Shown here piece by piece: positions 28,725-54,166 of a stretch of DNA of 64,000 nucleotides. Each line of letters starts with the position of its first letter. Position 1 is the stretch's first letter. Made by a program: the position numbers and the translations under genes. Source of the DNA: Amylostereum areolatum (taxonomy: Eukaryota; Basidiomycota; Agaricomycetes; Russulales; Stereaceae); the NCBI GenBank assembly GCA_012932865.1, contig SAXG01000110.1:1-64000 (forward strand). Direction: 5' to 3'. The notes under the pieces are model-generated. The model saw only the letters and a list, made by a program, of their open reading frames with translations. It was not told where the DNA came from and did not search any database.

Positions 28725-28746
28725 CGGCTCGACCGCTTGCGGCCGC
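28725..28746 (+). repeat. Left terminal inverted repeat of KDZ element
   Basis: These 22 bp match the reverse complement of 54,145-54,166 exactly. It contains several CGG/CCG triplets and a GCGGCCGC palindrome at its inner end. The 7 bp outside it (28,718-28,724) match their counterpart at 5 of 7 positions. Confidence 0.9.
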
Positions 28747-29077
28747 ATATGAGAGGATTTTCCACCCCCCAGCGTGTTTCGATCCAAACGGCGCGGCCGC
28801 CCCCTCGGTTGTCTCCCAGCACCCCCTCTGCCGGTATCCGCTTCGCCAGGACCTCGGTCTAATTTACCATTCGCCAGGATGTCCTCGCTACACATCCCCT
28901 AGCCACCGCTCGCTAGAATTACTGTGTCGGTACCATGTATCCCATGTTTTATTTCCAATACATCCGTGTTACAAACATGCTACCAAGATTTGAATAGGCT
29001 ACAACAAATATACTATGACCAATAATGAACCCCTACACTCGGCGGCAGGCAATACGAAATCATCCGTTCGAGATGAA

Positions 29078-29149
29078 CCCTCGGTAGGCGGAGTGGTCTG
29101 CCGAACCACTCGTTCCTCGCAGTCGGCAGACCGCTCCACCGACCGAGGG
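29078..29149. promoter_or_regulatory. 27-bp-stem hairpin near the 3' end of the RRPP-motif gene
   Basis: The left arm 29,078-29,104 and right arm 29,123-29,149 are inverted copies with 3 mismatches in 27, around an 18-nt loop. Both arms carry TCGGTA/TGCCGA-type motifs seen elsewhere in the element. It lies about 100 bp beyond the stop codon of the neighbouring minus-strand gene. It may act in 3' end formation or as a protein-binding site; this is inference. Confidence 0.7.
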
Positions 29150-29248
29150 TAGCCAATCATCCCAAACAGATGACTTTGTCTGTCCTCCCGCCGCGCTAAA
29201 ACCTCCCCCAGGAAACTACAAGCGAAAACAACACTGTACCGAGGAATC

Positions 29249-30539
29249 CTACGTTCGGGACCGCTTTCTGTCTCGACCCTCTTCCCTGATATCCTCCACT
29301 CCACTAACATACCGGGCACGCATCAGAGCCACCAGCTCCTCCTTCATACGATGCAGGGTATTCTCATCTTGGGTGAGGACACTCAGCATGTGGTCGTACG
29401 TCTTCAGGTTCTGAGCAATCCGCCGAGCGTCTCGGTAGATGCTCATCCACGCCGAGGTAAGCTGAGGACCGGCAGCGTCCATGACATCGTCCGGTAGGGC
29501 TGGAGCCTCGGGAGAGCGATCCAGGAAATTGAGCCACTCTTGATACGATTCGTGCTCTGCCGGATGGTCAAATCCATACCCGTCGGCAGCACAATCAAAA
29601 AAAAACTCACCTGGCAAGTTGGATCCCTCCAATGCCGCGTCCAGGGTGCCGTTGGAGGGTTCGGCGGCGGTAGGCCAGGATTCTGAGAGTTGTTAGATCA
29701 ACAGGTGAAATACGCAGGGTCCACTCACCGTTTGCAAGCCCATCGGCACGCTCCTGCCGACCCACCCTGAAGGACGGCCGACCGCTGACCCCTGTCACCG
29801 AGTCGTCCCAGGACGCGCGTGGCTTTGAAGCCTTCATCAGAGCAGCGTGCTCGGGAGACAGGTCGGGGTCAGACCTCATCAGGATCCCCCGGGACGGGGT
29901 CGCTTGTCGGTTGCGAATCCGCGGTCGAGTGGGGGACATGGGCGGCACAAGAGACTTGGGCGGTGAGGACGGGGCAGAGGGGAAAGTCCAGCCCCCGGCC
30001 CCAGGCCTTGATCCTGCCGAGGCATTTGTTTCAGGCGGACGCCGGATGACGTAGCATCCCACAGAAGGCCCAGGCATACCAGCTGCTGCCGAGGAAGCGG
30101 GGTCTAGCTGCCCAGAAGCATCTTCGTCTCTTGCATCTGGTGGGGGCCGCCGAAAGGTAAACACCGTGGGAGGGGAGGTAGAAAGGGAAGAGGGGGGAAC
30201 ATGTTGAGGTGGCCGGCGAATTGTGAAGGCGGGATGACGTATGCGCCGTGCCGAGGCCTCCTCGGCAGCTGGCATTCCCTCAGGTTCGACCTGTTTGTGA
30301 GGCCCCTGCATTGTGTATTGGACGGGGTGAGGGGATGGCTGAGAGGGAGCGGGTCGCCGGATGGTGAACTGCGCGGGGGTAGGGTTTGGGGAAGGTACCG
30401 GAGAGGTGTTCATACCTCTCGCCAGTTCTTCGGTTTCAGGCGGTGGGCGCCGAATCACGTACCGAGGGGGAGGGACACCAGGTGAAGGAACTTCATGATC
30501 AGGAGGCCGACGAATGGTGAAGGGGGTTGAGGTGGGCAT
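29249..30539 (-). CDS. KDZ-element protein with repeated [FY]xIRRPP motifs
   Basis: Two exons (30,539-29,729 and 29,682-29,249) give 414 residues. The first 170 residues are proline-rich and carry FTIRRPP or YVIRRPP motifs at about residues 7, 27, 58, 105, 127 and 163, with a degenerate copy near 75, spaced by variable disordered linkers. The middle contains serine/proline tracts. The C-terminal 130 residues look folded (HESYQEWLNFLDRSPEAP, MHRMKEELVALMRARYV-like helices) and end in a basic RDRKRSRT. Repeated short motifs in disordered sequence usually bind a partner domain several times. The family is unknown to me. It is the leftmost gene in the transposon and reads toward the left end. Confidence 0.7.
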
Positions 30540-33500
30540 GTTTGGGGTGAGGCTTTCGGTGGTCGACGTGGCAGGTGGTGGACGGAAAATAAGTCGCGTG
30601 AAGATGCAGAGGCAAGACTTCGCCACGTGACATAACATATGCCGATCCGAGCCTAAATCATTCCCTTTTCTGGCACCGTAAGCGACAACGCGTCGAAGTA
30701 AGCAACGTGTGCCTGAGTTCGGCAACAATCTGTCAAGGCTGCCGAGTACGGTGAAGTTGTCAAAAGTGTGTTTGCTCGCCCGATTGTTATCAGTCCGGGC
30801 CCGCACCGGACCCATCTGCCGAGCGGAGTGCAAATGTCTCTGCCTTATACTTTACAGTTTTGAACCCTCTCTGTTCTGCCCCCATCGCATCATTTTCCTC
30901 ACCATGTCCACCGCCGCCACGAGCAGAGCATGGGAAGCCTTCGCCAACCGGGGCTCCCTCATCATCAACCGTGTAACGGCCTACCGAACGTACCGAGCGT
31001 GGCTCGCACTCAAGCACGCTTCGCCAGAGGTTCGTTTTAAGTGGATTGGGAAGTTTGTGGAGGAATGGGTGCGTCTGCCGATTGTCTCCCGTTTTCAGAT
31101 CCTCATTATATCCACAGCATCGTGCAGCGGAACCGCAAAACTGGCACAAGTTCGTTCGCTACGTCTACGACCAAATCTGCAACCCTGGAGAGGGGGATAC
31201 TATCACGGCAGATGTCATGGCGAACCGATTCGCCACCGCCCCCCCTTTCCTCGATCAGCCACCAGAGGAGATTGCGGACCCGGGCCCAGATCAGTGGTGG
31301 ATAGCGCTCGGTACGTCGCCGCCAACTGATCTTATCTCATTCGTCTCATGTTTACTCCAGAAGAGTCCGCCGATCCGGCACTCCAGCCAACGGGTTCACA
31401 TTCCCGTGCCCCGCGGGCCATCGATGCCGCCTCCGCGACTTCACCATCTACCGACCCCCCAACACGCGGCCGTCGCCACACTCGGGACAAGTCTGTCTCT
31501 CGCACCCCCGCTACCCCGTCTCGCCCTTCCCGCCAAAGGTCAACCACGCCTAGGCGCAACATCAGCAAGGCGACAGTGGAAGATTCCGATGAAGAGGACA
31601 ACACTCAACAACAGGCACAAGATCTGCCGAATGAGGACGCGGACAAGGACGCCGAGGCAGCTGGCGAGAAAGGCAAAGGTGCCGGGAAGGCCAAAGGCAA
31701 GAGGCACCGGGCGCAGGTCACCGGACCCATCGACCCTCCCGACGACCAGTCTGCCGAGCACCTTGCCGATCTTGTCGAGCGCAAAAACAGGATGTGGAAT
31801 ACCCCGCAGGGCGAAAACTACGTCTACAACGACGTTCGGCAGCATCCCGAATGCTGGGGTTTGCACCCAGACCACCCGGCACATGAGGTACGTCCCGTAC
31901 CGATCTCCTCCGCTCCATTTCTGTCGACTTACCGACTTACAGGAACCTTGCACAAACTGTGAAGCAGGCGACTACCCCTGCTACTGGGGTGTCTCTGGTT
32001 CTTGCAGCCCCTGCAGCCTGCGCAATATCAAGTGCAGCCACAACAGTGCCGCAACGTACGCAGCCCTCCACCGAGGATGGCATTGGAACGAGGATCGTCG
32101 CGGAGCCTTCGTCCGCAGGCTCACCGAGACTGGCAGGCTGACCGAGGAAAGCCTGAAGGCGCTCTCGGCAAGGTTGACTCAGCCGGTGCTCCAGTACCCG
32201 GGTAAGAACTCTTTGCATGCTCGGTACGAATTCAACTAACATTACCTCAGAGTTTTCCGAGCAACCGATGCCCACCGTCGCCGAATGGCAAGGCCAGGGC
32301 CAGGCAATGAGCAAGGCGAAGAAGACCGCGTCGAAGAAGGCTGCCGAGGAGAAGACCACATCGAAGAAGGCTGCCGAGGAGAAGACGACTGCCGAGGAGG
32401 CGAAGAAAGCTCCCGCTAAGAAAGCGGCCGCTAAGGCTAGCAAGAAGGACAAACCGCCGAGCCGGGCAGCCTCCAAACCTCCAAAGCCTCGCCCTGTGCC
32501 GACCGTTGAGATGCCCGATAGGACTCCTGCCAAAGGGGCAAGATCGGCAGCGTCGTCATCTCACCAGGCAGACCCCCCTCGTGCTATCGTCCAGCCTGCG
32601 CGTCCCGGTGAGTTTCTTCCCCGACCCCCTCACCGTTAGTATTCCATGCACATCCTCCCCAGTCACTTGCTAATGATAGATTATTCTAGCGAAACCAGTA
32701 GTTCAAGACGAAGATGATCAGGACATCGACATGGTGGACCAGCTGCACCCCTCCAGCTACGGCCCCCCCTCGCAAAGTCCTCCCCCAGCATCAGACGTAC
32801 CGACCCCCGCCCGTGTTTCCTCCATCTCCTTCCCCCGAGCCAGCACCTCCGTCCCCGCTCCCACACCAGGAGTCGTTCTCGACACAACCGCCCTCGCCCA
32901 GATGCTATCGCCATTGCTGTCGGCACACGAGGCTCGCATCGTCAAGATTGTGGAAGATGGCGTCCGGGACGTTCGTCGGCAGGTCGAGGGCACGAACGCA
33001 AAGTTTGCCGAGCTACAAGCGACCATGGCCGAGTTGCAAAACGGCCTCCCTTCTCTCTTGCGCCAGTCCGTACCCCCCGAGATGGCAGCATCCCAAGGTC
33101 AGGCTCCCGACGGCAGCAAGGTTCAGGAAATCTTCGAGATCGTGGAGGCGATCCACGAAAACGTCAAGAATCTCCACGTCCTCGTTGTCGACAAATCCCA
33201 CGAGCAGGTAGACCGGGACGACACGTCGAAGGAAGCCTTGGAGAGCCTCGACAGGCAGCTTGACACGGCACTAGAGAGTCTTGCAGCCCTCGGCAGCACC
33301 GCCGAGAGATTTGCCACTGCCGACCAGGTCAAGGCGTTCCGGACTTCCCTCTCCCAGGACCTCGTCGACTTCCACACCGCTACATCGACGAAGCTCACAG
33401 ACGTGACCCAGGCCACGGACGCGCTGGCGACTTCAACGAGGAAGTCATTCCTCTCGGCTGCTGACGACTGGCAGAAGGTCTCCCAAGCTATCACAGGCCG

Positions 33501-33659
33501 GATCTCAAGCCAGGGGAACATGTTAGAGACGTCGGCACAGCAGCGCCAAGCAACTGTCGTTGCATCCTTGACAGGAATCACCCAGCAGCTCGTCCAGATC
33601 TTCCTCGGCAACATCCCCAATCAGGTCGGGAATCAGGTAGGGGCGTTTGGGGTGGACGA

Positions 33660-33723
33660 CCCCATGTGGCAGGCCATGCAGCAGCACCAACAGCAGCAGC
33701 AGCAGCAACAGTAGCAACAGCAG

Positions 33724-33785
<62 letters not shown>
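33660..33785 (+). repeat. CAG/CAA microsatellite (polyglutamine tract) with a TAG
   Basis: An uninterrupted run of CAG and CAA codons encodes polyglutamine in the host gene's frame, except for one TAG at 33,712-33,714, a single change from CAG. Confidence 0.9.
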
Positions 33786-34048
33786 CCCCGCGCCTCCTCC
33801 CGAACCCGCTGCCCAGGGCAACTTCAACCTTATAGACTTCGAGTTTGACCCTAATTTCCTGCCGATTTCCCCTCGGGACGATGCCTTCACGCCTCCCCAG
33901 TCCGGTCCCTCGACCACCGCCCCCCTCCTTGGCTTGCAACCCAAGCAACCCTTGTTTTTTGACTCCTCATCCTCTCCATCGGCTCCCTCTCCAGCTGCCC
34001 CCTCACTCAGCAAGGCTACCTGGGGACCCCAGGCCGAGGGCTTTTCAG

Positions 34049-34053
34049 ACGGC
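34049..34053. repeat. Target-site duplication ACGGC (left copy)
   Basis: ACGGC directly precedes the left LTR and is repeated at 41,570-41,574 directly after the right LTR, as expected for a 5-bp Ty3/gypsy duplication. Confidence 0.95.
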
Positions 34054-34511
34054 TGTCAGCAACGACTAGTGCGACAGCACCAAGTTACGACACAGCTGAC
34101 TAGAAGATGAGGACGACAGAGGGGAGCCGATCAGACACGGCGACAGACGAGGGAAAGCAAGCAAAGTCGGTAGAATTGACTAGCTCGAGATAAGGAATAT
34201 GTACAGCGAGAGCGAGCCTTATATACACAAGAGGAGAGAGACTTAGGTAAGCAACCAATACACGGCGATCAGTAAGCAGACCAAGTATAAGTAAGCAGTC
34301 GTATGTAAAAGAGCACAGCATGAGTCAGTATCGTACAGCATGAGTCAAGAGGAAGGAGTCAGACCCGGACTGAGATGAGTCACGTGGGTCCGGGCGGGAT
34401 ATAGATGAGCCGGGTCCGGGCCAAGGTGGAGCCGGACCGGTGATAAGTTGATAAGTCCTAAAGCGTGTAACCGATGTAAAGTAAAAAGAAAATTATAGAC
34501 CGTTCATGACA
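34054..34511 (-). repeat. 3' LTR of the chromovirus
   Basis: 458 bp with TGTCA...TGACA ends. It differs from the other LTR at 3 positions (one G/A change near 34,114 and two near 34,367-34,371). The pol stop codon lies 8 bp inside it. Confidence 0.95.
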
Positions 34512-37500
34512 TCACCCCTTCCTTAGATTCGACGTCCTCGTCGTAATCAGATCCAGTTTCTTCCTCCAACAGGAGTTCCCAACGATTAAGGCGTGCAGGT
34601 TTCGGGGCACCCGGATGTTCACGGTGGAAGTCGTCAATGCGTTTCTTGGCATTCTGGAGATTGGTGAGAGGCTCCCAAGTATTGTCATTGTCTGGGTAGC
34701 CTTTCCATTTGACGAGGTACTTGAAGCCGCGACCAACCTTCTTGGAGTCTATAATTTTTTCGACCTCATAGACTTCCTCTCCTTGGACTAACTCTGGCGG
34801 TGGAGGTGTAGGTGCTTTCTGATTGTCAAAGGCGGGACCGTTGTGTGGAGATAGGAGGGACTCGTTGAAGACCGGATGTTTTCGTGACCAGGATGTAGGG
34901 AGGCGAAGCTTGTAAGCCGATGCTCCGACTTTCTCCAGGATTTCGAAAGGACCAAAGCGCTTGTCATCTAGCTTTTGCATAGGACGTGCCGTTTTGATTA
35001 CGGTTTGGCCATCTCTGGTCTTGGCTTCCAGCCAGACGAAGTCGCCAATTTTGTAATCTATTGGTTCGTCCTTCTTGCGATCGTAAAAGCGCTTTTGATC
35101 GTCCTGTGCTGCCTTTAGTGCAGAGCGGGCTTCCTCATAGATGTCTCGCATGCGTTGTGCAAACTCGTTCGCCGATGGGTTGTCTGTTCCACGTCGAGGG
35201 TTTGTTCCCAGGTAGAGTTCCCGACCATAGTTGGCAAAGTTGGGAGACATCCCAATCGAACTATGGACCATGTTGTTGAGCGCAGTCATGGCAAGTGGGA
35301 GGTAACGTGTCCAATTGTCCTGTCGTTGATTGACGAAGATGCGAAGGTAGTTCTCCATGGTCATGTTGGAGCGTTCGGTCTGTCCGTCCATCTGAGGGTG
35401 ATACGCCGTGGACGGGTTCCCTTCAATGCCTAACAGTTGGAACAATGCCGTGGTGAATTTGGAGACAAACACGCTGCCACGGTCGCTGACGATCTTTCTA
35501 GGGATTCCATGATGGGGGACCACCTCGCGTAGGTACTCGAAGGCGAGTTCGTCCTCCGTTAGGTCTTTGGTCGTGGCCCAGAATACAACCTGCTTGGTAC
35601 CCATGCAGTTCACATTGCAGATGGCGTCTTTTCCATCCGAGACTGGGAGCGGCATGACAAAGTCGATGGATACATGCTCCCAAGGCGCTTGTGGCGGGTC
35701 ATGTGGGTGGAGTGGAGCGGCAATGCGATCATGTCTAATCTTGGTACGTTGGCAGGTCTCACATCCTTCAACATATTTCCGGACATCGTCTCTAATGGCA
35801 GGCCACCAGTAGTTGCGCGTGATGAGCTCATGGGTCTTGTATCGTCCTGGATGACCGACAAGCGGGCCGTCATGATGAGCTTGGATGATGTCTGCACGGA
35901 GTCCTTTGTCTCTTGGGACATAGAGTCTGTGTTGCCAGGTGATCGTTCCATCTGCGTGTTCCAGCCATCCCTTCACTTTGAGTGCTAAGGCGCGTTCTAC
36001 TGTATGGTCTCGGAGTAAGGTAGCCTCCTGAATCCGCTCAATGAAGACATTGTCAGGTCCATTGGTTATAATTCCTGCATGGTTGAGGGCGCGAAAGAGT
36101 TCCGGTTTCAGGAGGACAATGTTTTCATTGTCTTTCTCCCCCTTCTCAAGGCCCGCTAGTCGGGAAATAGCGTCGGGTTTACCCATTGTTTTGCCAGGCT
36201 TGTGGAGTAGCGTACAATGATACTCTTGTAGCTCCGTTAACCATCGTGCTTGTCTCCGATTTAGCTTCTGCGCCTTGCGGAAGTACGTGAGATTGCGATG
36301 ATCCGACCAGATTTCAAACTCCTGTCGTGCTCCCATGAGGTATTGTCTCCATTCCTCTAGCGCCGTCATGATAGCCAGTAATTCCTTGTCATAAATCTCA
36401 TAGTTCCTCTCAGCTTCGCTGAGGGACTTTGAGAGGAAGGCGACCGGGTGCCATTTGCCATTGTCCTGTTGTTGCGAAAGTACCGCGCCCGTGGCATAAT
36501 CAGAGGAGTCCGCCTCGACACGGAACTGCCCATCGTCTGTAGGGATTGCTAGAACTGGCTGCGATGTTATACGTCGCTTGAGTTCCTCAAAAGCCTCCTG
36601 CTGTGGAGTGTCCCAGACCCATTCCGTCTTCCCAGTGAGTTTAGTCATTGGGTGAGCAATGCCGCTGAAGTCCTTGATAAAGCGACGGTAGAAGTTGCAA
36701 AAGCCCAAAAACGATTGAAGTTGTTTCTTCGTTTTGGGGGCTGGCCAATTGGTGATTGCCGCGACCTTTGCTGGATCCATGCGAACCCTTCCTCCGCCGA
36801 CAATCATGCCCAGGTATTCGATTTCTGCCTTCTCAAACTCGCACTTTTCTGGCTTCAGATAGAGTTTATTTTCTCGCAGGATCCGGAGGACCTCCTTGAC
36901 TATTCGACGATGTTCTTCTAGCGTATGCGTGAAGATGAGGATGTCGTCCAAATAGACGACCACGACTCCTTGGTGGATCAAGTCTTTGAACAGGTCGTTC
37001 ATCATAGCTTGGAACGTAGACGGGGAGTTGGTGAGTCCAAAGAACATAACCGTAGGCTCGTAGAGACCTTTGTTCGTGCGGAATGCAGCTTTCCATTCGT
37101 CCCCTTCTTTAATCCGAACATTGTTGTACCCCCATCGGACATCGAGCTTGGTAAAGTGCCGTGCTCCCTTAAGCTTGTCAATCAACTCTTGGATGAGCGG
37201 GAGCGGGTAACGGTTCTTTATCGTCATCTCATTGAGCTTTCGATAGTCCTGCACAGGACGTAGCGAGCCGTCTTTTTTCTTGATGAAGAAGAATGGGGAG
37301 GCCATGGGTGATTTGGACGGTTGGATCCGGCCAGATATCAGGTTCTCTTCCAAAAAGGCGTCCAGTTGCTTCTGCTCGTCCAATGTGAGGGGGTAAACTT
37401 TGCAATCGACTGGTTTGAAGTTAGGAGTGAGCTCAATGGCGTGGTCCCATGGGCGTCGCTCAGGGAGCTTGTCGAAGTCGTCTTTGTCAAAGATGTCCTT

Positions 37501-38679
37501 GAATTCGTGGTACGCCGTTGGGACTCGCTCAGAGAAGGTCTGTTCCTTTTTCTTAGCGTGCTCTTCAATTGCAATGTCCGATGCATGGGTCCGGATGTGG
37601 TATGTCGCTTTGTAGCCATCCCAGTCGAAAGCAAACAGCTGCTCGTCCTTTTCCATGTGGACTGGCTCTTCCTCCTCCTCTTCATCATCATCGATATTGA
37701 GGAGGGGAGGGGGACGAGAGCAGCTGATAGGGCATCGGTCGAATTCAATTGACCCGGATTTCCAGTCGATGTGAGGGTTGTGCTTCTTTAGCCACTCATG
37801 TCCAATGAAAAGGTCCGTATCTCCTAGATTGGAGACCGCCAGGTCAATGTTTTCTTCATGGTCTTGAATATTTAGGCGAAGTGTGACATATTCCGTGATG
37901 GGACCTCCTGTGTTGAGAGTGCCGTCTGCATTTCGTACTGGGATTGGGCGAGCAGTCCGCCGCGTGGGGATGTGATTTTCCTGTACAAACTTCGTGTTGA
38001 TACACGAGCCAGTGCAACCACTGTCCAGGAGTGCGAGAGCTTTGACAATGCGCTTGGAACCTACCACCAGTTGTGTGGGAATGACCGTTTGTTCCTTGGC
38101 GCTGGAGGAGCGTATGAACTGCATAGGAGTGGCGAGCTCTAGTAGAGCTTGACATGCTAACTCGTCTCCCATGCCAGTTATTTCCCTGATGGCTTCATAA
38201 GTAGCCTCGTCACGGCGTCGGTGGTGTGTCCAGCTGCGAAGGATTGCAATCGCACTTTCGGGTTTGTCTTCCCTTAAGCGACGAAGCATCCATTGAGCCG
38301 TTCCAGGTGCCATATAACATGATTTGGGCGCCGTGCCCCTTCCATCGCACGGTGTTGTCCCTGACTTCACAGGGTCCATATCCAAAACCGAGTCTGTATC
38401 CAAAGCCGTATCCAAAACTGAAGCCGAAACCGATGCCGTATCCAAAGCCGAAGGCTCACAAATCGAAGCCTGAGTATCTAAAATAACAACGGGACGCGTG
38501 CCCGTACCGATAGAGTCCGTAAGAGAAGTCATAATGGGGATATCCCCCGTAGTAGTACAGTCCGAATCAACCATGCGCATATGTAAACGAGAACCAGGCC
38601 ACCGTGGCGCAACAAAACCAGACGAGCGAGAAACAGAAACTTGGGCTTCAGATGCCGTGTACATCGTCAGCCCCCTCAA
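34504..38679 (-). CDS. pol: Chromovirus Pol polyprotein: protease, RT, RNase H, integrase, chromodomain
   Basis: The open frame has 1391 codons. It has, in order, an aspartic protease (ALLDSGCTGSCI, active-site Asp near residue 219), reverse transcriptase (FFGLTNSPSTFQ and the catalytic VVYLDDILIF), and RNase H (FRVEADSSDYATGAVLS, EIYDKELLAI). These are followed by integrase with an HHCC zinc finger (GHPGRYKTHELI, CETCQRT) and a DDE core (SIDFVMPLP, SDRGSVF, a Glu in HPQMDGQTERSN). The C-terminal chromodomain YLVKWKGYPDNDNTWEP, which in chromoviruses guides integration through histone marks, completes it. The frame is in -1 relative to gag and has no ATG at its 5' edge (the first codon is TTG), consistent with expression by -1 frameshifting. 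It is intact. Confidence 0.97.
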   Translation of the reverse strand: MRGLTMYTASEAQVSVSRSSGFVAPRWPGSRLHMRMVDSDCTTTGDIPIMTSLTDSIGTGTRPVVILDTQASICEPSALDTASVSASVLDTALDTDSVLDMDPVKSGTTPCDGRGTAPKSCYMAPGTAQWMLRRLREDKPESAIAILRSWTHHRRRDEATYEAIREITGMGDELACQALLELATPMQFIRSSSAKEQTVIPTQLVVGSKRIVKALALLDSGCTGSCINTKFVQENHIPTRRTARPIPVRNADGTLNTGGPITEYVTLRLNIQDHEENIDLAVSNLGDTDLFIGHEWLKKHNPHIDWKSGSIEFDRCPISCSRPPPLLNIDDDEEEEEEPVHMEKDEQLFAFDWDGYKATYHIRTHASDIAIEEHAKKKEQTFSERVPTAYHEFKDIFDKDDFDKLPERRPWDHAIELTPNFKPVDCKVYPLTLDEQKQLDAFLEENLISGRIQPSKSPMASPFFFIKKKDGSLRPVQDYRKLNEMTIKNRYPLPLIQELIDKLKGARHFTKLDVRWGYNNVRIKEGDEWKAAFRTNKGLYEPTVMFFGLTNSPSTFQAMMNDLFKDLIHQGVVVVYLDDILIFTHTLEEHRRIVKEVLRILRENKLYLKPEKCEFEKAEIEYLGMIVGGGRVRMDPAKVAAITNWPAPKTKKQLQSFLGFCNFYRRFIKDFSGIAHPMTKLTGKTEWVWDTPQQEAFEELKRRITSQPVLAIPTDDGQFRVEADSSDYATGAVLSQQQDNGKWHPVAFLSKSLSEAERNYEIYDKELLAIMTALEEWRQYLMGARQEFEIWSDHRNLTYFRKAQKLNRRQARWLTELQEYHCTLLHKPGKTMGKPDAISRLAGLEKGEKDNENIVLLKPELFRALNHAGIITNGPDNVFIERIQEATLLRDHTVERALALKVKGWLEHADGTITWQHRLYVPRDKGLRADIIQAHHDGPLVGHPGRYKTHELITRNYWWPAIRDDVRKYVEGCETCQRTKIRHDRIAAPLHPHDPPQAPWEHVSIDFVMPLPVSDGKDAICNVNCMGTKQVVFWATTKDLTEDELAFEYLREVVPHHGIPRKIVSDRGSVFVSKFTTALFQLLGIEGNPSTAYHPQMDGQTERSNMTMENYLRIFVNQRQDNWTRYLPLAMTALNNMVHSSIGMSPNFANYGRELYLGTNPRRGTDNPSANEFAQRMRDIYEEARSALKAAQDDQKRFYDRKKDEPIDYKIGDFVWLEAKTRDGQTVIKTARPMQKLDDKRFGPFEILEKVGASAYKLRLPTSWSRKHPVFNESLLSPHNGPAFDNQKAPTPPPPELVQGEEVYEVEKIIDSKKVGRGFKYLVKWKGYPDNDNTWEPLTNLQNAKKRIDDFHREHPGAPKPARLNRWELLLEEETGSDYDEDVESKEGVMS
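34512..34524 (-). promoter_or_regulatory. Polypurine tract (plus-strand primer)
   Basis: On the sense strand AAGGAAGGGGTGA abuts the 3' LTR, the position expected for the plus-strand DNA primer. It also encodes the end of pol. Confidence 0.8.
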
Positions 38680-39932: not shown

Positions 39933-40238
39933 GATTGGTTCGTCGAGGTCGGAGAAGTCTTCGTCGGTGACAGGCGGTAGGGCGGAGGCGGCGATGAGGT
40001 TGAAGTCGGCTTCAGTGAGGTCGTCTTGGCTTTCGTTGGCGAAGTACCAACTGATGCCACTTGTTTGGGTTGCTACGAAGGCAACTTCTACAGTGGTGTC
40101 TCCGAGTTGGACAAAGAAGTCATTTCCTCGTTCAGTGAAGCCTAGAGGGAGGGGATATATGTAGCAGTTTTCGTCCTCAACGTCGGTGTCGGAGTCAGAA
40201 CTGGAGTCGGAGCCGTTGAGTCTGAACGAGGGAATTGT

Positions 40239-40638
40239 TTATAAGTGGGTGAGGTCGATGACCTCTGGCTGGGTGAGGTCGATGACCTCTGGCTCTGGTG
40301 TGGGGCTGGGGGTGTTGCCTGGTGTAAGGAGGCGGTGGGTGTGTCGAGTGTCCACTGGTATTTTCTCGTTGGGCGCGTAGAAGGACTTTGGGGGTTGCTC
40401 GAGTTTGTAGCGGTAGGTGACGTATGGGCAGGAGTAGACGTAGAGGTTTCCGTTTCCTTGTTCGCTTATTTTGAGGCGATAGAAGTGGATGTCTATGATG
40501 GAGTCTTCAAGTTCTTCTACGCCGAGGGCGACCTTCCAATTGTGCCAGGCCCAGGGGTCTTTAGATTCGTTGATGAGGGAGATGATAGCGTCGTGGCTGA
40601 TGGGGATGAATTCTTGTACTTGCGAGCGCCAATCTTCC
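40239..40638 (-). CDS. Chromovirus gag N-terminal segment, closed by an in-frame TAA
   Basis: From ATG 40,638 (MEDWRSQVQEFIPISHDAI) this frame runs in register with gag, through a folded-looking segment and a VIDLTQPEVIDLTH repeat to TAA at 40,241-40,239. Translation beyond the stop stays open for about 100 codons into the annotated gag start. This looks like one original gag frame carrying a nonsense mutation, or a leader ORF with stop read-through; the sequence alone does not decide. Confidence 0.55.
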
Positions 40639-41109: not shown

Positions 41110-41111
41110 TA

Positions 41112-41574: not shown

Positions 41575-42286
41575 GATGACGGACCCAACTTGGCACCGGC
41601 AACTCGCCCGTCCCGAGAAGGATCCCTTCGTCCATCCCGAGAAGGCTCGATTCGCCCGTCCCGCGAAGGTGGTTCTCGCCAGGGCTCCGAGCATCGCTCG
41701 GTCGCGTCTCACGTGTCGGTGCTCACTATGTCTACCGAGGACGAAGGCGGTGCGCGGGTGCCTGCAAAGCGCAAGCGTGTGGGCGAGGACGCTGCCGAGG
41801 ACAAGCACGGCGGATTATCCCCCGCATCTTGGGCCGCCTTGAGTCCTGAGGAGCGCATGATCATTGAAGAAGACCCCGAGGCGGACATGCCTGAGCTTCC
41901 CAAGAAGGCAAAGAGGGGAGGCAGCACAGGGAGGGGGGGGAGAGGCAAGGGCAAGGGGAAAAATACCCCCAGCAATGCAGAGCCTGCACTAACTCGGCAA
42001 CAAGCTCAGAAGAGGGGAGAAGACCCCGTCGCAGGACCATCTGGCTCTGCAGAGCCGTCGGCATCTGTCACTGCACGCGGGCAGAATAAGCCAAAGAGTG
42101 GCAAGGGCCGGGGAGGAAATTAGATGGTATGTCGGCTTCGGTAGGTTACGCTTTGGCGTTGGGATCTTGTATGCTTTCATCCGTTTTTCTCGGTAGTGTC
42201 TGGCTACCCATCTTGTATCGCCTGCCGGTTGGGGTGTTTGGTTTCCATACTTGTACTTCGGGTTTTGCTTGCGCGTGCGCGTGTTA

Positions 42287-45300: not shown

Positions 45301-45711
45301 GAGTCGACCGAAGAAAGGTTCGGATCTTCGCCACACGACCGTGCTGCGAGAACCACCGATTGACTGCCTGCCAAGCTGTCAATATACGCGAAGGTCAATG
45401 AAAGACCAGTCATCACTCACATCCTTAGTTCTACCGAGCAATTCTTCCTCCGCTTCACTCAGATCCTCATCGTCGGCATCCCAGTCCCATCCCGGGTGAG
45501 TAACCTCCCACACTCGGGGGAAAAATGTCTTGATCCAGGTTGGTCGGCCGGCAGCTGGGGTGTCGATGTATGCAGTGATGTTTTTATCCATGAGGTCGAG
45601 CATGGCCACTGTGAGAAGTGGGGCAGGTCCATGAGGGCCATTGGGAGTGAGGGAGGTCTCGGCAGCGTTGGGAGGTCCAGGGGGAGGATTCTGGGCGCCT
45701 GACATGGACAC
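42387..45711 (-). CDS. KDZ-element protein of unknown function, about seven exons
   Basis: Exons start at MSMSGAQNPPPGP (45,711) and end with KKKRKRKRT (42,387). Recognisable stretches include GRPTWIKTFFPRVWEVTHPG, RRFFRDACREFITWCAREIG, DEQDIPYWICKGVRKRVVIQD, RQAWDVILLGMLYARCYQA and WLNAVFGAMADDIQVVVDYY. An acidic spacer (DDDEEEPDNPEDDD) precedes a strongly basic C terminus, a likely nuclear localisation signal. Most junctions are in phase. The one near 45,030-45,060 needs a weak GTTCGC donor to keep the frame. I recognise no known domain. It is co-oriented with the transposase and the dioxygenase, and its large conserved-looking core suggests an element-specific nuclear function. Confidence 0.7.
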
Positions 45712-46370: not shown

Positions 46371-49300
46371 TTAATCTACGTCGTGAGGATCCCAGTACCG
46401 AATAACCCCGGGGCCAAGCTCGCCATCAAATGCGGTACGGGCTCTCTCGGCATACTCAGTCCAATTCGCCATCATCCTCTCGGCAGTGCAGATGTGTCCC
46501 GGGGCTTTTGGGCGAGCTGACAGCATTGTGTCTCGACGGCCTTCCCACTCCTTCGCCAGAAATCGGAAGCTGGAGTAGGTCATACCCATTTCTGCCTTCA
46601 AGATGATAATCTCCTCCTCCACTCGGTCTAGAGACATTCTAGTCTCCAGCCACTTTTTCTTGAAGACTAGAGAATTCGTCAAGCGCATCCATGAGACAAA
46701 AAGAGGTACCAACATTCGCCAAGGTACTGACTCTCATCTGAATCGCTAGGTATATCCATCGTCCAAAACCAGGCGAGATTCATTTTCCAGCTCATGGGAT
46801 CGTTTGGATCGATACTCCTGGTTGAGATGAGCATATCTTCTTTTTTCATTGCCTGGAAACGTTCTTTCTGTGCCGAGGTCCAACCCAATCGCTCCATGTC
46901 TTCTCGGCAGCATGCATACTGCTGCGCATGCAGCCGGACCGTCTTGTTGAGGGAATGCACGGCATTCATACCCCGGGTGTGTGACGAGACCCCTCTGGCA
47001 ACATTCTGCACTTTGCGAATTGCCACTCGATACTGGTTGGCTTTGTCGACCAAGCCAAGACAGATTTGCTGCAGGTGGTGGTCGGCACTCGTTTCCCGAA
47101 GTCGGAGCTCCATGTCAGCAAACTTTCTGTGATCAGGGTTGTCGCACCAGGTCTTGCCTCGTGCCGAAGGAATATCAACGGCTCTGTACTCTGGCTGCTG
47201 ACCCTCGGCAGAAAGTGTTGCTGATACCGAGCCCCATTCGTCCTCGGTATGAAGCTTCCGAAGGCGAACCGTATGAAGACGGTTGGGCGGGTGTCCAAGT
47301 CGCTCCCTGGCCATCTCGTTATGTTTTTGCACCTTGGTCGCCAGCTTATGACGCCAGAGGGCTACATTGGAATGCTCTCGCTCGGTATCGGGCATCTGAC
47401 TGACATAAGCCTGGAGCTGGAGCCTGGCAAAGAATTAATGTCTGCCGAACATAGTTTGATGATGGACTCACTGCTCTTCTTGGAGGGCAATCCCCTCAAT
47501 GATGCATTTCGCATCGCCAGGGTTCTCGCTGTTGCGAACCTCCTCAGAGATGAGCTCAATCTCAACTTCCTTTCGAGATACGTCTGCCGACATGTTAGCA
47601 AACTGAATGGACGTCCTGAGCTCGGGGGAAGCATACATTTTATATTCGTCGGCATAAACTTGTCCATGGACTTGGGGTCTTTCAAGCGCTCCTGCATCGC
47701 CTGCCGAATCTCTTCTGTCCAGTCGGCAATCTCCTCTTTGGTAATTGTTTCGTCAAGCTTGGCGAGGGCCTTCGTGCGCTGGCGAAGTACCTTCTGAGCC
47801 TTGCGCCATTTGCGGATGAGGGTCGGGACTGAGACAGTGAGCCTAGATATCAAGACAGAAATATAACCTACTCATCTGGGTCATTTTCTTCCAATTGCTG
47901 TCATTCATGTGAGCGTTGAGAGTTTCCGCTCGGTTCGCCAGCGACATCATTCGGCAGCATGTAGAAATCAAGTTGAGCAAAGCCCAGAGGGTTTCCAGGA
48001 TTTCGCCATCAATCAGTCCTATGCCTGGGATATATAGAGGATAGAACCGAGGGTGGCAGACATTGACGTGGGCATATATGTGCCAGATGCCGACACCTTG
48101 AAGAAACACTTCGAACTTTGGCAGGTTGAGATGTGGTGACTTGCCGATGCGCTTGGACAGGTTGATGTAGTGCTGGCAGGCTACATCATAGAGGTAGATT
48201 GCCCGGAGTATTCCCTCCATCTTGTGGTTCAAGGCATGCGTTAGGGTGTAGTCCATGTTCGCTTGCCTAAACTTTATCAGAGAGAGATAAAATGACGAGA
48301 ACAAGGCACATACTTTTCGCCTTTCTGCAGGTCACAAGCGCAGTGTGGCACAAAGCACCCGTGCCGACCACAGGCGGCAGCCGCGAGACCTGTCACATCC
48401 AGGTGTTTCTTGTCCGACTTCCCTTTGTGCTTGCTTGCCGTGTGGTCATGACAATCCGCTTTCTCCCAAGTCTACCGACAATGAAGTAGGTTTCCACGTA
48501 GCGACTAAAAGCTTACCGGGTCATCTTCCACTGCCACAGCGAGGTGCTCCTTGTACGGCCCTGGCGACACCATGAAGCCATTGCCAGCCGTCCAGTCGAT
48601 ATCATTGCCCGGCACACGGGACTTGACATGCTGTGCACTCATGTTCGCATCCATGGCTACCGAGCGTATGAATTTCCACCTAGAGGACAATGTGAGCTCC
48701 TCTTCCAGGAGGTGGGTGAGGAACTTACGAATCTGGCTCCTTCTCCCACCCCGGGAACAAGTTCACTCCTACTTGAGGACAGGTAACACAAAACCAGGCC
48801 AGCTCGCCATTGGAAGGTCGCTTGAAGATTAGAGTGTGTGCAAACCCAAACTGTTGCAGATTCCCGAGGTCGAGCCACTGCCGACGGATCCTCAATAGCT
48901 CGATCAGCCGAGTCTACCGAGAGTCAGAATCTGCTACCGAGACGTGGAGAGAAAGAAAATACCTTTGTTGTGTTGGGGGCTTCAGGCTTCGTCACTCGTC
49001 GAATCTTTCGCATGTATGCATTTGTAACCGTCTTGCACTCGAGGTTGTCTAACTGTGCATCGTCGAGACACCGAAAGGTGAATGCGGTCTTCGGCACGTC
49101 TTGACTTGCCGGGTACAGTCCGCAGGAAAGAAGTTGGCGATCCTCTGGCTCCCGAGGAGGTCCGCAAACACAGAAGCGCACACCAATATGATGCAAGCCT
49201 GAAGGGTCGACAAGCACCATGACTCTATTTTGAAAAAGGTCTGTCGTTGGCGCTTCATTGTTCGGTATGGGACCGTCGGTGGTATCTCCCTCCTTTGCAT

Positions 49301-50270
49301 CCGCCTCAGCCTCGACTTTGGCAGCATCCTCGGTATCATCGGCAGGATCCTTGGCGTAATCGGGGGGCTCGACTGGTACGCGAGGGTCATCAGGGTCATC
49401 GTCATCGTCAACAGTGAGGCCCTCCTCTTCGGGAACAAGGGCGCACATTGACAAATCCTTAAACGCTGCTGACGAGGATGCTGCCGAAGATGTGGCCGAG
49501 GTATCCCAAGAGCCCTGGATTTGAACTTCAACCTGTCGGGAGAGCTCGGGAATTGGATTCATAGGACATTCGTCTCCGTCGTGGCCCACACAGATGCATA
49601 CTCCAGCATCACGGAGCCAGGCGGGAGCATAGAACTTACCATTCCACCTTTGTACTCGGTGGAAGGGCGTGTACACATGGGTTTCCCGAAGGCAGAAAGA
49701 GCACATGTGCCGACCGCGAAAGCAGTTGCTGCATCGCCAAGTTGCCTCGTGATTTTTGCACCGTCGGCAGAGCTTGTCCGGGGGAGGGGCATCTCTTTCA
49801 ACAATCTTGTGAAGGTACGAGGCCTCTACGTCCAGCCACTCTCGCATATACATGACTGATGTCTGCCGAGCATCCCTGTCAGATGAATCTTAAGGCATAC
49901 AGCCCAAGCTACGCACCTTTCCTTGTGTGCTCGTCTCCCTAACGCCAAAGTCCTCCTCATCATCCCAGTAGTTGTCAACGAGAAACTCCTGTGGAATCCC
50001 ATACGAGTCAACGGGAGGCAGGTGGGTAGGGCCTGGGGCGGACGGTCCTGCCTGGGATGGGCCTGCCTGGGACGGGCCTGCCTGCGGCTGTGGAGAGGCC
50101 TTCTGGGATCGTCCACGCTTTGCTTTTGGCTTGTCGTCCCAGGGTATCAACTTCTCGGCTTTCTTGGACTTAACCCTGGTTTTGATACGAGCACCTCTTG
50201 AATTGTACGACTCTCTCTCGCTATATTCGCTAGAGGAGGGGGACTCGCGGCGACTTCGATTACGACGCAT
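46371..50270 (-). CDS. KDZ-family transposase with CxC2 cysteine cluster
   Basis: Exon 1 (50,270-49,917) is a basic/acidic leader. From residue 150 the CxC2 cluster appears (LCRRCKNHEATWRCSNCF, then CSFC), followed by THVYTPFHRVQRWNGKFY, which leads into the KDZ core. RFCVCG and LDNLECKTV, then RIRRQWLDL and WFCVTCPQVGVNLF, are typical. The catalytic acids are visible in AMDANMSA, YDVACQHY and DGEILETLWALLN, the D-D-E of the RNase-H-like fold. A zinc-binding CGRHGCFVPHCACDLQKGE lies between the first two. The C-terminal half is helical (LRKWRKAQ-like, FFKKKWLETRM) and ends at DPHDVD. About ten introns are needed, including a 44-nt one near 47,620-47,662 and a 43-nt one near 47,840-47,885. With them the frame is open throughout, so the enzyme appears intact. 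Confidence 0.9.
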
Positions 50271-50364: not shown

Positions 50365-51697
50365 CTATCGATGTAAGAAATCTCCGACATAAGACCATTG
50401 TGGATAGGGGAGAGAGCAAGCTGTGTGTAATGGCTGTCTCATGTATCCTGCAATACACAAACGTTCTTCTAAACTTGCCGAGACACCGTGGAGGACGAAA
50501 TAACCTGAGAAAAGGGCTACTGAGCCCGAAGGCCATAAGCATCTGACACCGAACGAGTGAAGCTCAAGAACTGTGTCCGGAGAGCCGCCGAGTGACAGAA
50601 CCAAGTCATACCACTCGGGACAACTACTCGCATGGTCTCGGTGGGCTGGCGAGGCTCGGTTGCCAATGACTGCAACTACATTGAAAACAAATGCCCAATG
50701 TTGCAAATGGTCTGCAAACTCTGGATGTTGTCCAAGCCTAACGAGACATTCTCTGGTCACCGCGTACAGTTGAGGGTGGACAACAGCCAGGATAGCTGAA
50801 AGCAGGGCAGCATCCTCGGCAACTTCTTCCATCCAGCTGGCAACACTAGTCCAGTGCTTGCGAAGATCTTTTGAGGGTTGGATTTTGGATGAGAAGCCCT
50901 ACAAGACATTAAGCTAGAAGGAAAAGGATGTGAATAAATGTGTTACATTTTGTGCAAGATGGTGCCATGCGGGGGTGAAGTTCGCTGACCCTCTCGGCAC
51001 AGTCTTTGCTTGCTCGGCAGGCATGTAATAGGCTTCGTTGTCTCGCCAGTGACTTGCCGTGTCGCTAGGCCTGACCTGGGGCGCATGGGACTCCATTGCA
51101 TTGCGTATATGATGTACCGATGCTAGTAATCGAGCCTTGAAGGATGTGAGACAATGTGGGGAGATTATGAGAAGGGGGAATACCTGGGTTTTCTCAGAGA
51201 GTAAGCCTGGGAGAAGCCAAGCGAGAAGTTTGCCGGTTCGGTCGGTGACAACACACGCCCAGTTGACGGACTCTGCCAAGGGAGGGAATGCTTTGATGAA
51301 GTCTGCCTCGGCAAGCGGATTTCTTCCGTCCTGTGCTCCAATGCTGGCAACGTACTGTGTGGCATCAAAAGGGATGACGACTGGCGATGTATGAGTACCT
51401 CGGCAGCACATTGAGGACTGGGGACTTACTTTCTCTCCCGAGGGCTTCGGCAAGGTCTACAGCAATAGTCCGAAGCTCTTGCGCAAGCTGCCAACTGATG
51501 ACCGGGGGATGGGGTACTTCAGGGATAGGGAGATGGGAACGGGATGCAAGCTCTGCATGAAAGCAGCCGACGAGGTACTCTGCTGCCGAATCAGAAAGGA
51601 GCAGCTGCCAGTCCGAAGGAATAGGTGACGTGCACTCGTCGGCTGGCTTCCAGCCCATGAATAGATAAAAACGAGGGTGATTGAATTTGGAGATCAA
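50365..51697 (-). CDS. TET/JBP-type 2-oxoglutarate/Fe(II) dioxygenase
   Basis: Four exons (51,697-51,430, 51,380-51,184, 51,135-50,947, 50,898-50,365) give 395 residues in phase. The C-terminal double-stranded beta-helix carries the Fe(II) triad H304-x-D306 (in ASPAHRDHASSCPEWYD) and H355 (in FSGYFVLHGV). R372 (in AGYMRQ), 17 residues after the last His, is positioned for 2-oxoglutarate, close to the spacing in TET and JBP proteins. The HRD...PEWYDLVLSLG and SGSVALFSGYFVLHGV pattern matches the fungal TET/JBP class (Pfam 2OG-FeII_Oxy_6 as I recall). Family members oxidise 5-methylcytosine; activity here is inferred. It lies 94 bp downstream of the transposase start region, on the same strand. 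No lesions seen. Confidence 0.8.
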
Positions 51698-51837: not shown

Positions 51838-52845
51838 CTACATCTCCATCTTGGGAGAAATGGTATCACCTGCCAAAGACCCCTCGCCAGAATTCTCCTC
51901 GCCAGAATTCTCCTCGCCAGAATTCTCCTCGCCAGAATTCTCCTCGCCAGGATTCTCCTCGCCAATTCCCTGCCAAGCAAGGTGGTTTGCTCCTGTCAAC
52001 ACCCACATTCTATGCATGTCTTTGAGAACTTGCGACTCCTTCTCCACGGTGTCCTTCAGGTGGTTAACAAGGTCGGTTCGTCGTTCGAGAGAGTTGTTGA
52101 CAAGGTCTTCGTGCTGGCGAAGGACCCTTTCAATGTTGCGACGGGCTTGTCCCAATCCTACCGAGAGTTTAGGACAGAACCAGCAGGAGAAGACAAACTC
52201 ACCCGATGAGACTTCTGCCACATCTGGCAGGATCCTGGGCTCCTGGGAGGTTCCGCTTGCATGTCTTTCCTGCATCTCTTTGTAGTACTGACGAGCTCGA
52301 AGAGGCTACCTTTGTTAGAAGATGGGCAATGGGCTTGAATTCGAAAGAACTCACTGGATTTTCGAGCCACATTTCAACCGCCCGAATGGCGGACCGGCCT
52401 CTGCCACTCTGGATGACAAAATGCTCGGTCCACCAGTCGTTGACGGTTGTTCGGCATCCCTGAACCTCGGCACGGGTCAACGGACCCTTCGGTAAAAGTA
52501 CATCTAGGTCTTCTAAAGTTACATTTGGCGGAGGAGCATTGCAGAGATTGTATATATCCACGAGCCAGGGATTCTGGCTCAAATGCTGGGGCGTCTCGAC
52601 CAAAAACTGGCCGGTCAGTCTGATTATGTCACTCTGAGAGATCATGAGAGATTTGTGTTTAAGTGGGGAAAGACATAACCTACCGCCTCGGCACGAAGAC
52701 CCTCGCGAAAACAATCCGGGATGTTCCTAGGCGTGGCGAGGTCTTGGCGCATACGGCGTAGCCAAGATGTGGCAGCATATATCTCGGCAACATGAATGAA
52801 TTCTTCGTAGGAGGGGTCGAGAACGATGGTGGCAACGGTTGACAT
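51838..52845 (-). CDS. KDZ-element protein of unknown function with GEENS repeats
   Basis: Four exons (52,845-52,684, 52,633-52,355, 52,287-52,203, 52,157-51,838) give 281 residues. A helical N-terminal half (SYEEFIHVAEIYAATSWLRR, RTTVNDWWTEHFVIQSGRG) leads to a coiled-coil-like stretch (RRNIERVLRQHEDLVNNSLE). An acidic tail follows, built of six 15-bp repeats encoding GEENS/GEENP. No known domain recognised. It lies 140 bp upstream of the dioxygenase on the same strand and could share a regulatory region with the plus-strand gene that starts at 52,995. Confidence 0.65.
51888..51966. repeat. 15-bp tandem repeat, about 5 copies, inside a coding exon
   Basis: The unit CTCCTCGCCAGAATT recurs in tandem with one A/G variant. 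It encodes the acidic GEENS repeats of the minus-strand protein. Confidence 0.9.
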
Positions 52846-52994: not shown

Positions 52995-53844
52995 ATGGCA
53001 TCCCCTATTCCGCCTTCTGTGTCCCAATCCTCCTTGATCGAAATGTGTGCAGCGGATATGGTTGAATACCTAGGTTCTCGGATAGGGCAAGCAGCTCGGT
53101 GGTTATCCGAAACCTCGTCCCGACGGTGTACCGACGAGGATCCCGAGAGTGGTGACTTCAAAAGTGCATGGGATCATGATCCATACGTCAAAGTTTGTGT
53201 ACAACATGAGCTGGTGGGTCGTTCTATGTGTTTCTGGAATGTTGGCTTACCTGTCTTAGAACCTGATCATGACAGTGATCGGGGTAGCACGCATGCGAGG
53301 AATGGCCCTTCAACCAAATCAAATTGTACGGAATGCTCATCAATACCTGTCTTTCGGGGGGGAACCGGGCTTGTGGAGCGACATCCCTCGCCTTGCCCTT
53401 GAGCTGGGAGAGCCCCCGGAGGCGATGGTTGTTCTGCCTGGGTGGTGGTTTTTTGCGGAGGCCGGGAAGACGTACGATGCAGTGGATGGTTTCATCGAGT
53501 TCCTGGAGAACGCGATGCTTTCGGTACATTTGCTTTTCCTTGGGCGACTCGTAGCTGACATTGTTCAGGACCCTGGGTTGGATGGGCTTGAAGAATGGCT
53601 TCAAAGGGCTGAGGCTCTTCGCACCGCCATCATAGAGGTTGCCGAGGAGGTGGGAGAGCAGCGAGACTGGGCTGTTGAGCAACGGAAGGACTATGCCGAG
53701 CGTTTGGCAAAGGTCACACTAAGGTGGAAAGTCGTGGCGAGTGCGATGGCTGAAGTCAAGGCGACGGCAGGTAACTCAGGTGGTAAACTGGGTGGGGACG
53801 GGGATGTGGAGATGGAGGACGGTACGAGCTCCATTGTTTCATAG
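52995..53844 (+). CDS. KDZ-element small protein of unknown function
   Basis: Two exons (52,995-53,213 and 53,260-53,844) give 267 residues. The protein starts MASPIPPSVSQSSLIEM, has a helical, amphipathic middle (VEYLGSRIGQAARWL; LGRLVADIVQDPGLDGLEEW) and a coiled-coil-like stretch (EEVGEQRDWAVEQRKDYAERL), and ends in an acidic tail. Two hydrophobic patches (MVVLPGWWFFAEAG; LSVHLLFLGRLV) are not long enough to be clear membrane helices. No known domain recognised. It is the rightmost gene of the transposon and reads toward the right end. Confidence 0.65.
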
Positions 53845-53929: not shown

Positions 53930-54019
53930 CGTACCGACGGGGGAACACGTACCGACAGGGGAACATGTACCGACAGGGGAGTGCGTACCGACGGGGGAGT
54001 GCGTACCGACGGGAAAGGG
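53930..54019. repeat. Subterminal 18-bp tandem array, 5 units
   Basis: Units start at 53,930, 53,948, 53,966, 53,984 and 54,002, each beginning CGTACCGAC or TGTACCGAC and continuing with a purine-rich half. Every unit contains the TACCGA motif found throughout the element. The array lies about 130 bp inside the right terminal repeat, where transposase-binding repeats are often found. Confidence 0.85.
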
Positions 54020-54039
54020 AATCCTAACGAGGGGAAGGG

Positions 54040-54102
54040 ATGATCGGCTTCGGTAGTTCTCCCTACCCGATCATTTGGCCACTCCCGAATGAGTGTCGGG
54101 AG
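54040..54102. promoter_or_regulatory. Two hairpins beside the right terminus
   Basis: ATGATCGG (54,040-54,047) pairs with CCGATCAT (54,067-54,074), with an inner GTAG/CTAC pairing. CTCCCGA and TCGGGAG (54,082-54,102) form a second hairpin with a 7-nt loop. They lie between the tandem array and the terminal repeat. Confidence 0.6.
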
Positions 54103-54144
54103 AGAATAGAGATCACGTGGGGTTGTACCTGGAGGGGGGGGGCA

Positions 54145-54166
54145 GCGGCCGCAAGCGGTCGAGCCG
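54145..54166 (-). repeat. Right terminal inverted repeat of KDZ element
   Basis: The exact reverse complement of 28,725-28,746. A run of Gs (54,133-54,142) flanks it on the inner side. Confidence 0.9.

Follow-up and report, generated by a model that had tools for sequence, protein, structure and literature searches.

How does a TET enzyme encoded by a transposon find its own element? The question is raised by a 64,000-nucleotide stretch of the Amylostereum areolatum genome (Agaricomycetes; Russulales; Stereaceae), i.e., positions 1 to 64,000 of the forward strand of contig SAXG01000110.1, which we call the window; it holds a KDZ transposon with a gene for a TET/JBP-type dioxygenase and five additional genes. 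Within the assembly GCA_012932865.1 (57.13 Mb, 182 contigs), the window belongs to contig C14; names such as C1, C14, C45 and C128 are short labels within that assembly. Judged from its sequence, the element is a real mobile KDZ (Kyakuja-like) transposon whose TET/JBP gene is of the AG type; elements of this kind have been published (Kojima 2025, PMC12730594). We propose, with a rough probability of 0.55 for the joint reading, that it is a cut-and-paste transposon of ~18 kb whose TET enzyme would relieve host CpG methylation and whose dispersed TCGGYA hexamers would be bound by an element-encoded protein. The evidence comprises exact ends with 7-bp target-site duplications (TSDs), eight insertions (five with both ends), a second family with the seven genes, differences between copies that are concentrated at CpG, and the dispersed TCGGYA. 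It should be noted that the two strongest features, the CpG-biased decay and the dispersed hexamer, go beyond an earlier note made on this DNA.

Ends and copies of the element

The earlier note described perfect 22-bp inverted repeats as the termini of the element. The repeats themselves are present, at 28725-28746 (+ strand; CGG-N5-CCG-N4-CGG-CCG) and 54145-54166 (- strand), but they lie 65 and 66 bp inside the true ends. Across the assembly, the 22-mer has 14 matches at up to two mismatches (13 exact and one with a single mismatch; none for the reversed 22-mer used as a control), representing six left ends and eight right ends. Outward of the 22-mer, 65 bp are identical across the six left ends and 66 bp are nearly identical across the eight right ends (at most a few differences each), and in the five copies with both ends the sequences diverge precisely at the start of 7-bp target duplications. 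Because the copies diverge at this distance outside the 22-mers, where the TSDs begin, the element is assigned to 28660-54232 (GACCATATATGG...CCATAAGGTGTG) and the 22-mers are subterminal. The direct repeats are perfect in all five paired copies: ATCGAAC in the window (28653-28659 and 54233-54239), CCCGGAC on C45, GGCGGCT on C1, TGCAATG on C161, and AGACCTC on C128. Thus the alignment of other copies, which the earlier note had named as a check, moved the ends and left the element itself standing, and the search for the 22-mer proposed there did return further insertions with target duplications.

The outer 65 and 66 bp of the two ends form imperfect inverted repeats; their global alignment score was reached by none of 2,000 single-base shuffles, and their local score by 2.45% of them. 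The left terminus is GACC, and the pattern of Laccaria Kyakuja elements, i.e., 5'-CA..TG-3' termini without terminal inverted repeats (TIRs), was not found.

We counted eight insertions: C14, C45, C1:2739-2757k, C161, C128, C94, C171, and a lone left end at C1:2645109. The copy on C69 was counted as the same insertion as that on C128 and dropped from independent-copy counts because its right flank is the same, although it is still included in the codon-position test and in the count of 707 substitutions given below; it seems to be a second haplotype or a duplicate of the C128:32313-75126 insertion, with a common right flank and an insert of the same length (~7 kb) replacing TET. The copies on C94, C171 and C69 were compared over part of their length, whereas those on C14, C45, C1, C161 and C128 were compared whole.

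The seven genes of the window element are arranged in the order A (-), B (+), C (-), KDZ (-), TET (-), D (-) and E (+). The earlier note took the element for one intact 25-kb copy, which did not hold: ~7.5 kb of it is a nested Gypsy retrotransposon (34054-41569, - strand) that splits gene B, and gene B also contains a TAG stop. The element measures ~18.06 kb when Gypsy is removed; the Gypsy-free copy C1:2739413-2757467 measures 18,055 bp, with broken frames in TET and in two exons of KDZ. On C45, TET and D are mostly missing, ~7 kb of other sequence stands in place of most of TET on C128 and C69, and the C161 copy has several insertions and a KDZ frame break. Of the window and the seven contigs compared with it, only the window and C94 have a TET catalytic exon that is complete and free of frame breaks. 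Frame-break counts were not used for the repeat-bearing exons of B and D, which gave multi-piece alignments. Within the C161 copy, C161:1026730-1044581 is a 17.9-kb insertion flanked by a 13-bp overlap of element sequence.

CpG decay among copies

Differences between the copies, polarised by majority, are mainly transitions at CpG (457 of 707 substitutions). After removal of C69, C-to-T changes were found at 450 of 12,975 CpG copy-sites, versus 93 of 42,527 non-CpG cytosine copy-sites, a ~16-fold excess in which changes common to several copies are counted more than once. Along the element, CpG transitions occur at similar rates (0.021-0.042), except in the short spacer between D and E (0/70). 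The host flanks have CpG observed/expected ratios of 1.09 and 1.14, compared to 0.91 for Gypsy and 0.83 for the element. Because the copies differ mainly by CpG transitions, methylation of the element by the host is implied; CpG methylation of the copies followed by deamination would be the simplest reading. DNA methyltransferase domains are encoded in the genome on C34 and C161.

A dispersed TCGGYA motif

In an unbiased scan of all hexamers in the Gypsy-free element, TCGGCA was found 91 times versus 10.7 in dinucleotide shuffles (z 23.3), and TCGGTA 49 times versus 5.0 (z 19.0). The best hexamers in five comparison stretches (the 17.9-kb C161 insert, Gypsy, the 7-kb C128 insert, 18.06 kb of the left flank and the whole right flank) had z of 4.9-7.2, and the best one in the whole left host flank had z of 7.5. 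For 3.1 kb of the second family, described below, the best hexamer was CTCGGT (z 9.3), a part of the same motif.

The total of 140 TCGGYA, Gypsy excluded, corresponds to 7.75/kb. The density in the second family is 4.84/kb (3.1 kb) and 10.59/kb (0.66 kb), compared to 1.01 and 1.43/kb in the host flanks of the window, 0.40/kb in Gypsy, 0.86, 1.02, 1.12 and 1.71/kb in further stretches within the copies on C161 and C128, 0 and 2.40/kb in the flanks of the second family (less than 0.9 kb each), and 0.83/kb in the flanks of 11 other ends (15.7 kb); the rarity of the motif elsewhere is thus judged on the flanks and inserts compared, not on the whole genome. The longer form CTCGGYAG occurs 35 times in the element and eight times in 3.76 kb of the second family, versus none in the 38.4 kb of host flank in the window and one in the 15.7 kb of flank of the 11 other ends.

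TCGGYA is spread across the whole element, with 7-16 occurrences per 1.5-kb bin, and is absent from two short spacers (KDZ/TET and D/E). It is densest at the right end (18/kb), where an 18-bp tandem repeat (CGTACCGACGGGGGAACA; 4.7 copies, 53930-54013) contains the motif in its consensus unit. In synonymous codon shuffling of nine coding pieces, which do not include all KDZ exons, 89 motifs were observed versus 17.7 +/- 3.8 in 1,000 shuffles (maximum 32); each piece was significant alone (at most 3 of 1,000 shuffles reached the count), except for KDZ exon D2-E3 (92 of 1,000). The top hexamers of the second family compared to host flanks were CTCGGT (18 versus 2.15) and TCGGTA (14 versus 1.46), and TCGGTA is the top hexamer common to the subterminal regions of both families. 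In another KDZ family, C149:69001-70900 is enriched in CGGCAA (8 versus 0.84 expected), possibly a different tag, on little sequence.

A second family with the same genes

A second family was found at C128:646405-671861 (25,457 bp) with the TSD ATACCCC on both sides. Its ends start with GACCCTATATGGCAG and CACACCTTATAG, and a block CGG-N5-CCG-N4-CGR-CCG stands at the position of the window 22-mer; CGG-N5-CCG is conserved only at the four ends compared and is not enriched over the element as a whole. Relatives of all seven window genes lie in one run on C128: E (-) and D (+) at 646985-648356, KDZ (-) at 657675, TET (-) at 660225, C (+) at 662148-664899, B (-) at 666625, and A (+) at 670805-671254, KDZ and TET being recognised by family profile. 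Compared with the window proteins, E is 32-46% identical at the amino-acid level, D 52%, C 46-67%, B 29%, and A 48% over its C-terminal part. A hairpin lies downstream of gene A in both families, with 28-nt arms in the window (29077-29150) and 88-nt arms in the second family.

The gene order of the second family is the reverse of that in the window, except that the TET-KDZ pair is inverted. On C149, C100 and C9, TET and KDZ are oriented as in the second family; thus, the pair of the window family is probably the inverted one. Gene D has five further relatives outside the second family, at least four of which (C149, C100, C9 and C1:1690635) are within 10 kb of a KDZ match, among the KDZ matches listed; a relative of E adjoins D on the opposite strand at four of the five loci (C149, C100, C56 and C9). 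Given the relatives of all seven genes in the second family, and D and E near KDZ in others, the cargo genes seem to have long resided in the element, at least in the two families that hold all seven. The claim of the earlier note that a mobile KDZ element carries the TET/JBP gene together with five co-mobilised genes is therefore supported by the seven genes, the copies with TSDs and the relatives in the second family.

The codon-position test among copies gave P of 0.00023 for gene B, 0.051 for TET and at least 0.21 for the others. This pattern is read as decay after insertion, and long-term constraint would rest on the second family.

The transposase and the TET/JBP enzyme

The KDZ transposase gene with its CxC2 cluster is located at 46374-50198 (- strand; 5' and 3' limits approximate). 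In Pfam searches, the KDZ domain PF18758 was found with E of 1.5e-24 (87.3 bits, cut-off 26.6), and CxC2 with E of 6e-21 (75.1 bits, cut-off 27). Three candidate acids can be read in the exons, i.e., the D of VAMDANMSAQH, the D of YLYDVACQ and the E of DGEILE, which we take to be the KDZ catalytic triad. For the transposase with three catalytic acids described earlier, the Pfam match thus secures the KDZ part and the acids are present as candidates for the triad.

The TET/JBP gene is located at 50365-51658 (- strand) and matches Tet_JBP in Pfam (E 3.4e-12). The enzyme type and the HxD...H...R residues given in the earlier note stand; our model has 382 residues, not 395. The domain matches crystallised CcTET of Coprinopsis cinerea (PDB 7vpn, 7w5p and 8jkk; E ~4e-18) over query residues 110-309 and a short, weak N-terminal stretch. 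HxD, the histidine of LHGV and Asp337 (across a one-residue gap) are conserved in these homologous domains, whereas position 331 is Ser here, unlike in CcTET. Key TET residues are His326, Asp328, Asp337 and Gly331, and position 331 is Gly or Ser in Kyakuja, according to Kojima 2025 (PMC12730594). The sequence features of the AG type are present: the Tet_JBP domain, HxD...H...R, the Asp337 equivalent and Ser at 331.

Genome-wide, there are 27 Tet_JBP and 155 KDZ matches, counts in which some contigs, e.g., C75 and C102, seem to duplicate one another. At least 20 of the 27 Tet_JBP matches have a KDZ match downstream on the same strand within 10 kb, among the KDZ matches listed. We agree with the earlier note that the association of KDZ and TET is already known, being of the published kind (Kojima 2025).

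Cargo genes and the nested retrotransposon

Gene A (29249-30539, - strand, the low end being an inferred stop) encodes ~414 residues with a basic C-terminus and about six (F/Y)x(I/F)RRP(P/A) repeats. The 5' part of gene B (30904-34053, + strand) encodes six cysteines, a lysine-rich region and a polyglutamine run that contains the TAG, and is cut by Gypsy; the 3' part lies at 41570-42123 (+ strand), and the open reading frame (ORF) is continuous in copy C1. The cysteine spacing, CX2CX6CX7CX2CX6C, fits the Zn2Cys6 consensus. Genes C (42387-45705, - strand, ~1,012 residues, no Pfam family), D (51838-52845, - strand, ~302 residues, divergent from E) and E (52995-53844, + strand, 267 residues) complete the set.

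No match to genes A-E exceeded the Pfam cut-offs. Matches below the cut-off, i.e., TniQ in gene E (E 0.17), LisH-like (E 0.024) and pentapeptide repeats (E 0.00018) in gene D, Zn_clus in gene B (E 0.62), and DUF matches in the cargo, were put down to chance or low complexity. Gene C, TET and gene E had no matches in protein databases; because TET was among the queries without a match, we read this as poor fungal coverage, not as absence. AlphaFold models had predicted local distance difference test (pLDDT) values of 53 for exon 2 of gene E and 59 for the core of gene D, too weak for a fold search.

The two long terminal repeats (LTRs) of the nested Gypsy (34054-34511 and 41112-41569) are 458 bp each and differ at 3 of 458 positions; its target duplication is ACGGC. 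By eye, the end of its last ORF resembles a chromodomain. The same Gypsy family is inside or beside four other element copies (C161, C128, C171 and C94), and also on C69. Preferential nesting in the KDZ element was considered and rejected, since the family is abundant in the genome (614 first-look candidates, 40 of them scored), which makes the nesting unremarkable.

Proposed mechanism and alternatives

We propose that the element, ~18 kb long and moving by cut-and-paste, would encode a CxC2-KDZ transposase, a TET/JBP 5-methylcytosine dioxygenase and five resident genes. The host would methylate the element at CpG, and TET, whose activity on 5-methylcytosine is predicted from sequence, would oxidise the methylated cytosines so that the element could be expressed and could move. 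In a weaker part of the proposal, the TCGGYA array and the CGG-containing subterminal blocks are putative binding sites for an element-encoded DNA-binding protein. Candidates are the products of gene B (Zn2Cys6-like cysteines) and gene A (arginine repeats), and the CxC2 transposase; the half-site of Zn2Cys6 clusters is CGG. Such binding would allow self-recognition along the whole element, for transposition, for targeted TET action, or for both.

Several observations weigh against this proposal. The CpG transition rate of the nested Gypsy is only ~3 times that of its other cytosines (0.029 versus 0.0093), its general divergence being higher than that of the element; therefore, a strong CpG bias is not uniform among transposable elements in this genome. 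In the coding pieces of the second family, the motif excess is not significant (5 versus 2.8; reached by 62 of 500 shuffles), and none was found in short fragments of the families on C149 (3 motifs in 1.9 kb), C100 (0 in 1.9 kb) and C75 (0 in 1.1 kb). CpG decay is not lower in the motif when the TCG context is matched (29/813 versus 124/3,323, p 0.92), nor is it lower near the motif (0.0416 at 1-25 bp); this decay is a proxy for methylation loss at motifs and integrates over copies that are mostly broken. An apparent protection (p 0.006) resulted from calling the motifs on the window copy; it weakened when the majority base was used (p 0.059), vanished in the TCG-matched comparison, and was rejected. 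Gene B falls below the Pfam Zn_clus cut-off (10.7 versus 21 bits), a clear third-position excess among copies is found in gene B only, and not one of the five copies compared over their whole length (C14, C45, C1, C161 and C128) has all seven genes open.

Alternatively, TCGGYA may be a binding array of the transposase over the whole element that is needed to fold and synapse 18 kb and is unrelated to methylation, TET being untargeted. We regard this as possible but doubtful. The high density at the right end, the rank of TCGGTA in the subterminal regions of both families and the lack of local CpG protection at the motifs are all consistent with it, whereas the spread of the motif over every bin of the element differs from the subterminal arrays of Ac and En/Spm, which are confined to the element ends. 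Kojima 2025 (PMC12730594) also speculates that AG-type TET acts without target specificity.

Another tentative explanation is that we are dealing with an ordinary TET+ Kyakuja element, merely a new family, in which the cargo consists of transposition accessories and TET is carried along as in the published families. Iyer and colleagues are said to have described additional proteins in KDZ elements in 2014. The TSD length, the TET type and the CcTET-like residues agree with the account of Kojima 2025 (PMC12730594); however, the motif array and its effect on synonymous codons would be left unexplained.

The CpG-biased differences could also reflect a burst similar to repeat-induced point mutation (RIP), or sequencing error, and not slow deamination, which we consider improbable. 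The strong C-to-T bias would fit, and TCG hypermutation in Pucciniomycotina is cited by Kojima 2025 (PMC12730594). Conversely, all four NCG contexts are raised (0.025-0.042) and not TCG alone, the amount of CpG decay per copy broadly increases with other divergence, and CpG specificity is not expected of sequencing error. According to the discussion of the same paper, hypermutation is not detected in Agaricomycotina. Slow CpG decay is, in our view, distinct from a RIP burst.

Finally, an origin of TCGGYA as a by-product of codon usage or mutational bias, or as what is left of a longer dispersed repeat, is very improbable: the commonest placement in coding exons is anti-sense frame 2 (38 of the 89 placed), as Ala-Glu or Ala-Asp codons would give, but the density is as high in noncoding DNA as in coding exons (9.0 versus 7.3/kb), the two strands are equal (69/71), most of the excess is lost on synonymous shuffling, the bases next to the motif are nearly uninformative (0.24 bits at most), and the density is 0.4-1.7/kb in the other stretches of at least 2.9 kb compared from this genome, whether inserted or outside the element.

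Relation to known systems

The proposal of methylation relief combined with a protein-bound array can be extended, speculatively, to a self-tagged transposon: selection would have written CTCGGYAG through all genes and most spacers, over synonymous choice, and an element protein would read CTCGGYAG and bring the TET of the element to its own copies, as an independently evolved, fungal, enzyme-carrying counterpart of plant VANC anti-silencing. We consider this extension rather unlikely as a whole. In Arabidopsis, VANC21 binds a 9-base motif that is dense in VANDAL21 and removes methylation (PMC5735166, Nat Commun 2017). The likeness consists in a short motif that is concentrated in the element and uncommon outside it, combined with an anti-silencing function encoded by the element, which is putative here. 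According to the same account, VANC21 motifs lie mostly in noncoding DNA, share one orientation and often form tandem repeats, whereas TCGGYA is found on both strands and in exons and noncoding DNA alike; unlike VANC21, the enzyme here is TET, and motif binding and demethylation are putative.

TET+ Kyakuja DNA transposons of Agaricomycetes with 7-bp TSDs have been published (Kojima 2025, PMC12730594). The window element resembles them, as described there, in its KDZ-type transposase, AG-type TET and 7-bp TSDs, and its right end, read inwards, begins with CA. Unlike the two Laccaria families described there (CA..TG, no TIR), it has GACC at the left end, imperfect inverted ends and a perfect 22-bp inner block; that pattern is given for two families and may not define the Kyakuja lineage. 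"Kyakuja-like" should be read as a label given by TSD length and TET type. KDZ1 of Cryptococcus neoformans is likewise a KDZ superfamily transposon with a cysteine cluster, but has ~11 kb, 241-bp TIRs, an 8-bp TSD and CxC1, whereas the window element has CxC2; the passages on KDZ1 considered here name no TET gene in it (PMC12810828). Neither a seven-gene set nor a dispersed motif is described for Kyakuja in the parts of the main text of Kojima 2025 (PMC12730594) considered here, and a literature search by titles and abstract openings found no paper on either.

TET genes linked to transposons are numerous in some mushroom genomes (Kojima 2025, PMC12730594, cites 46 for Coprinopsis cinerea), and the element bears on how a TET enzyme would find its own element. 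An element defined by exact ends, a conserved seven-gene set, CpG decay and a dense motif makes TET targeting directly testable. Should the motif array prove to be a tag, codon choice in the genes of a eukaryotic transposon would here be shaped by a DNA-level signal.

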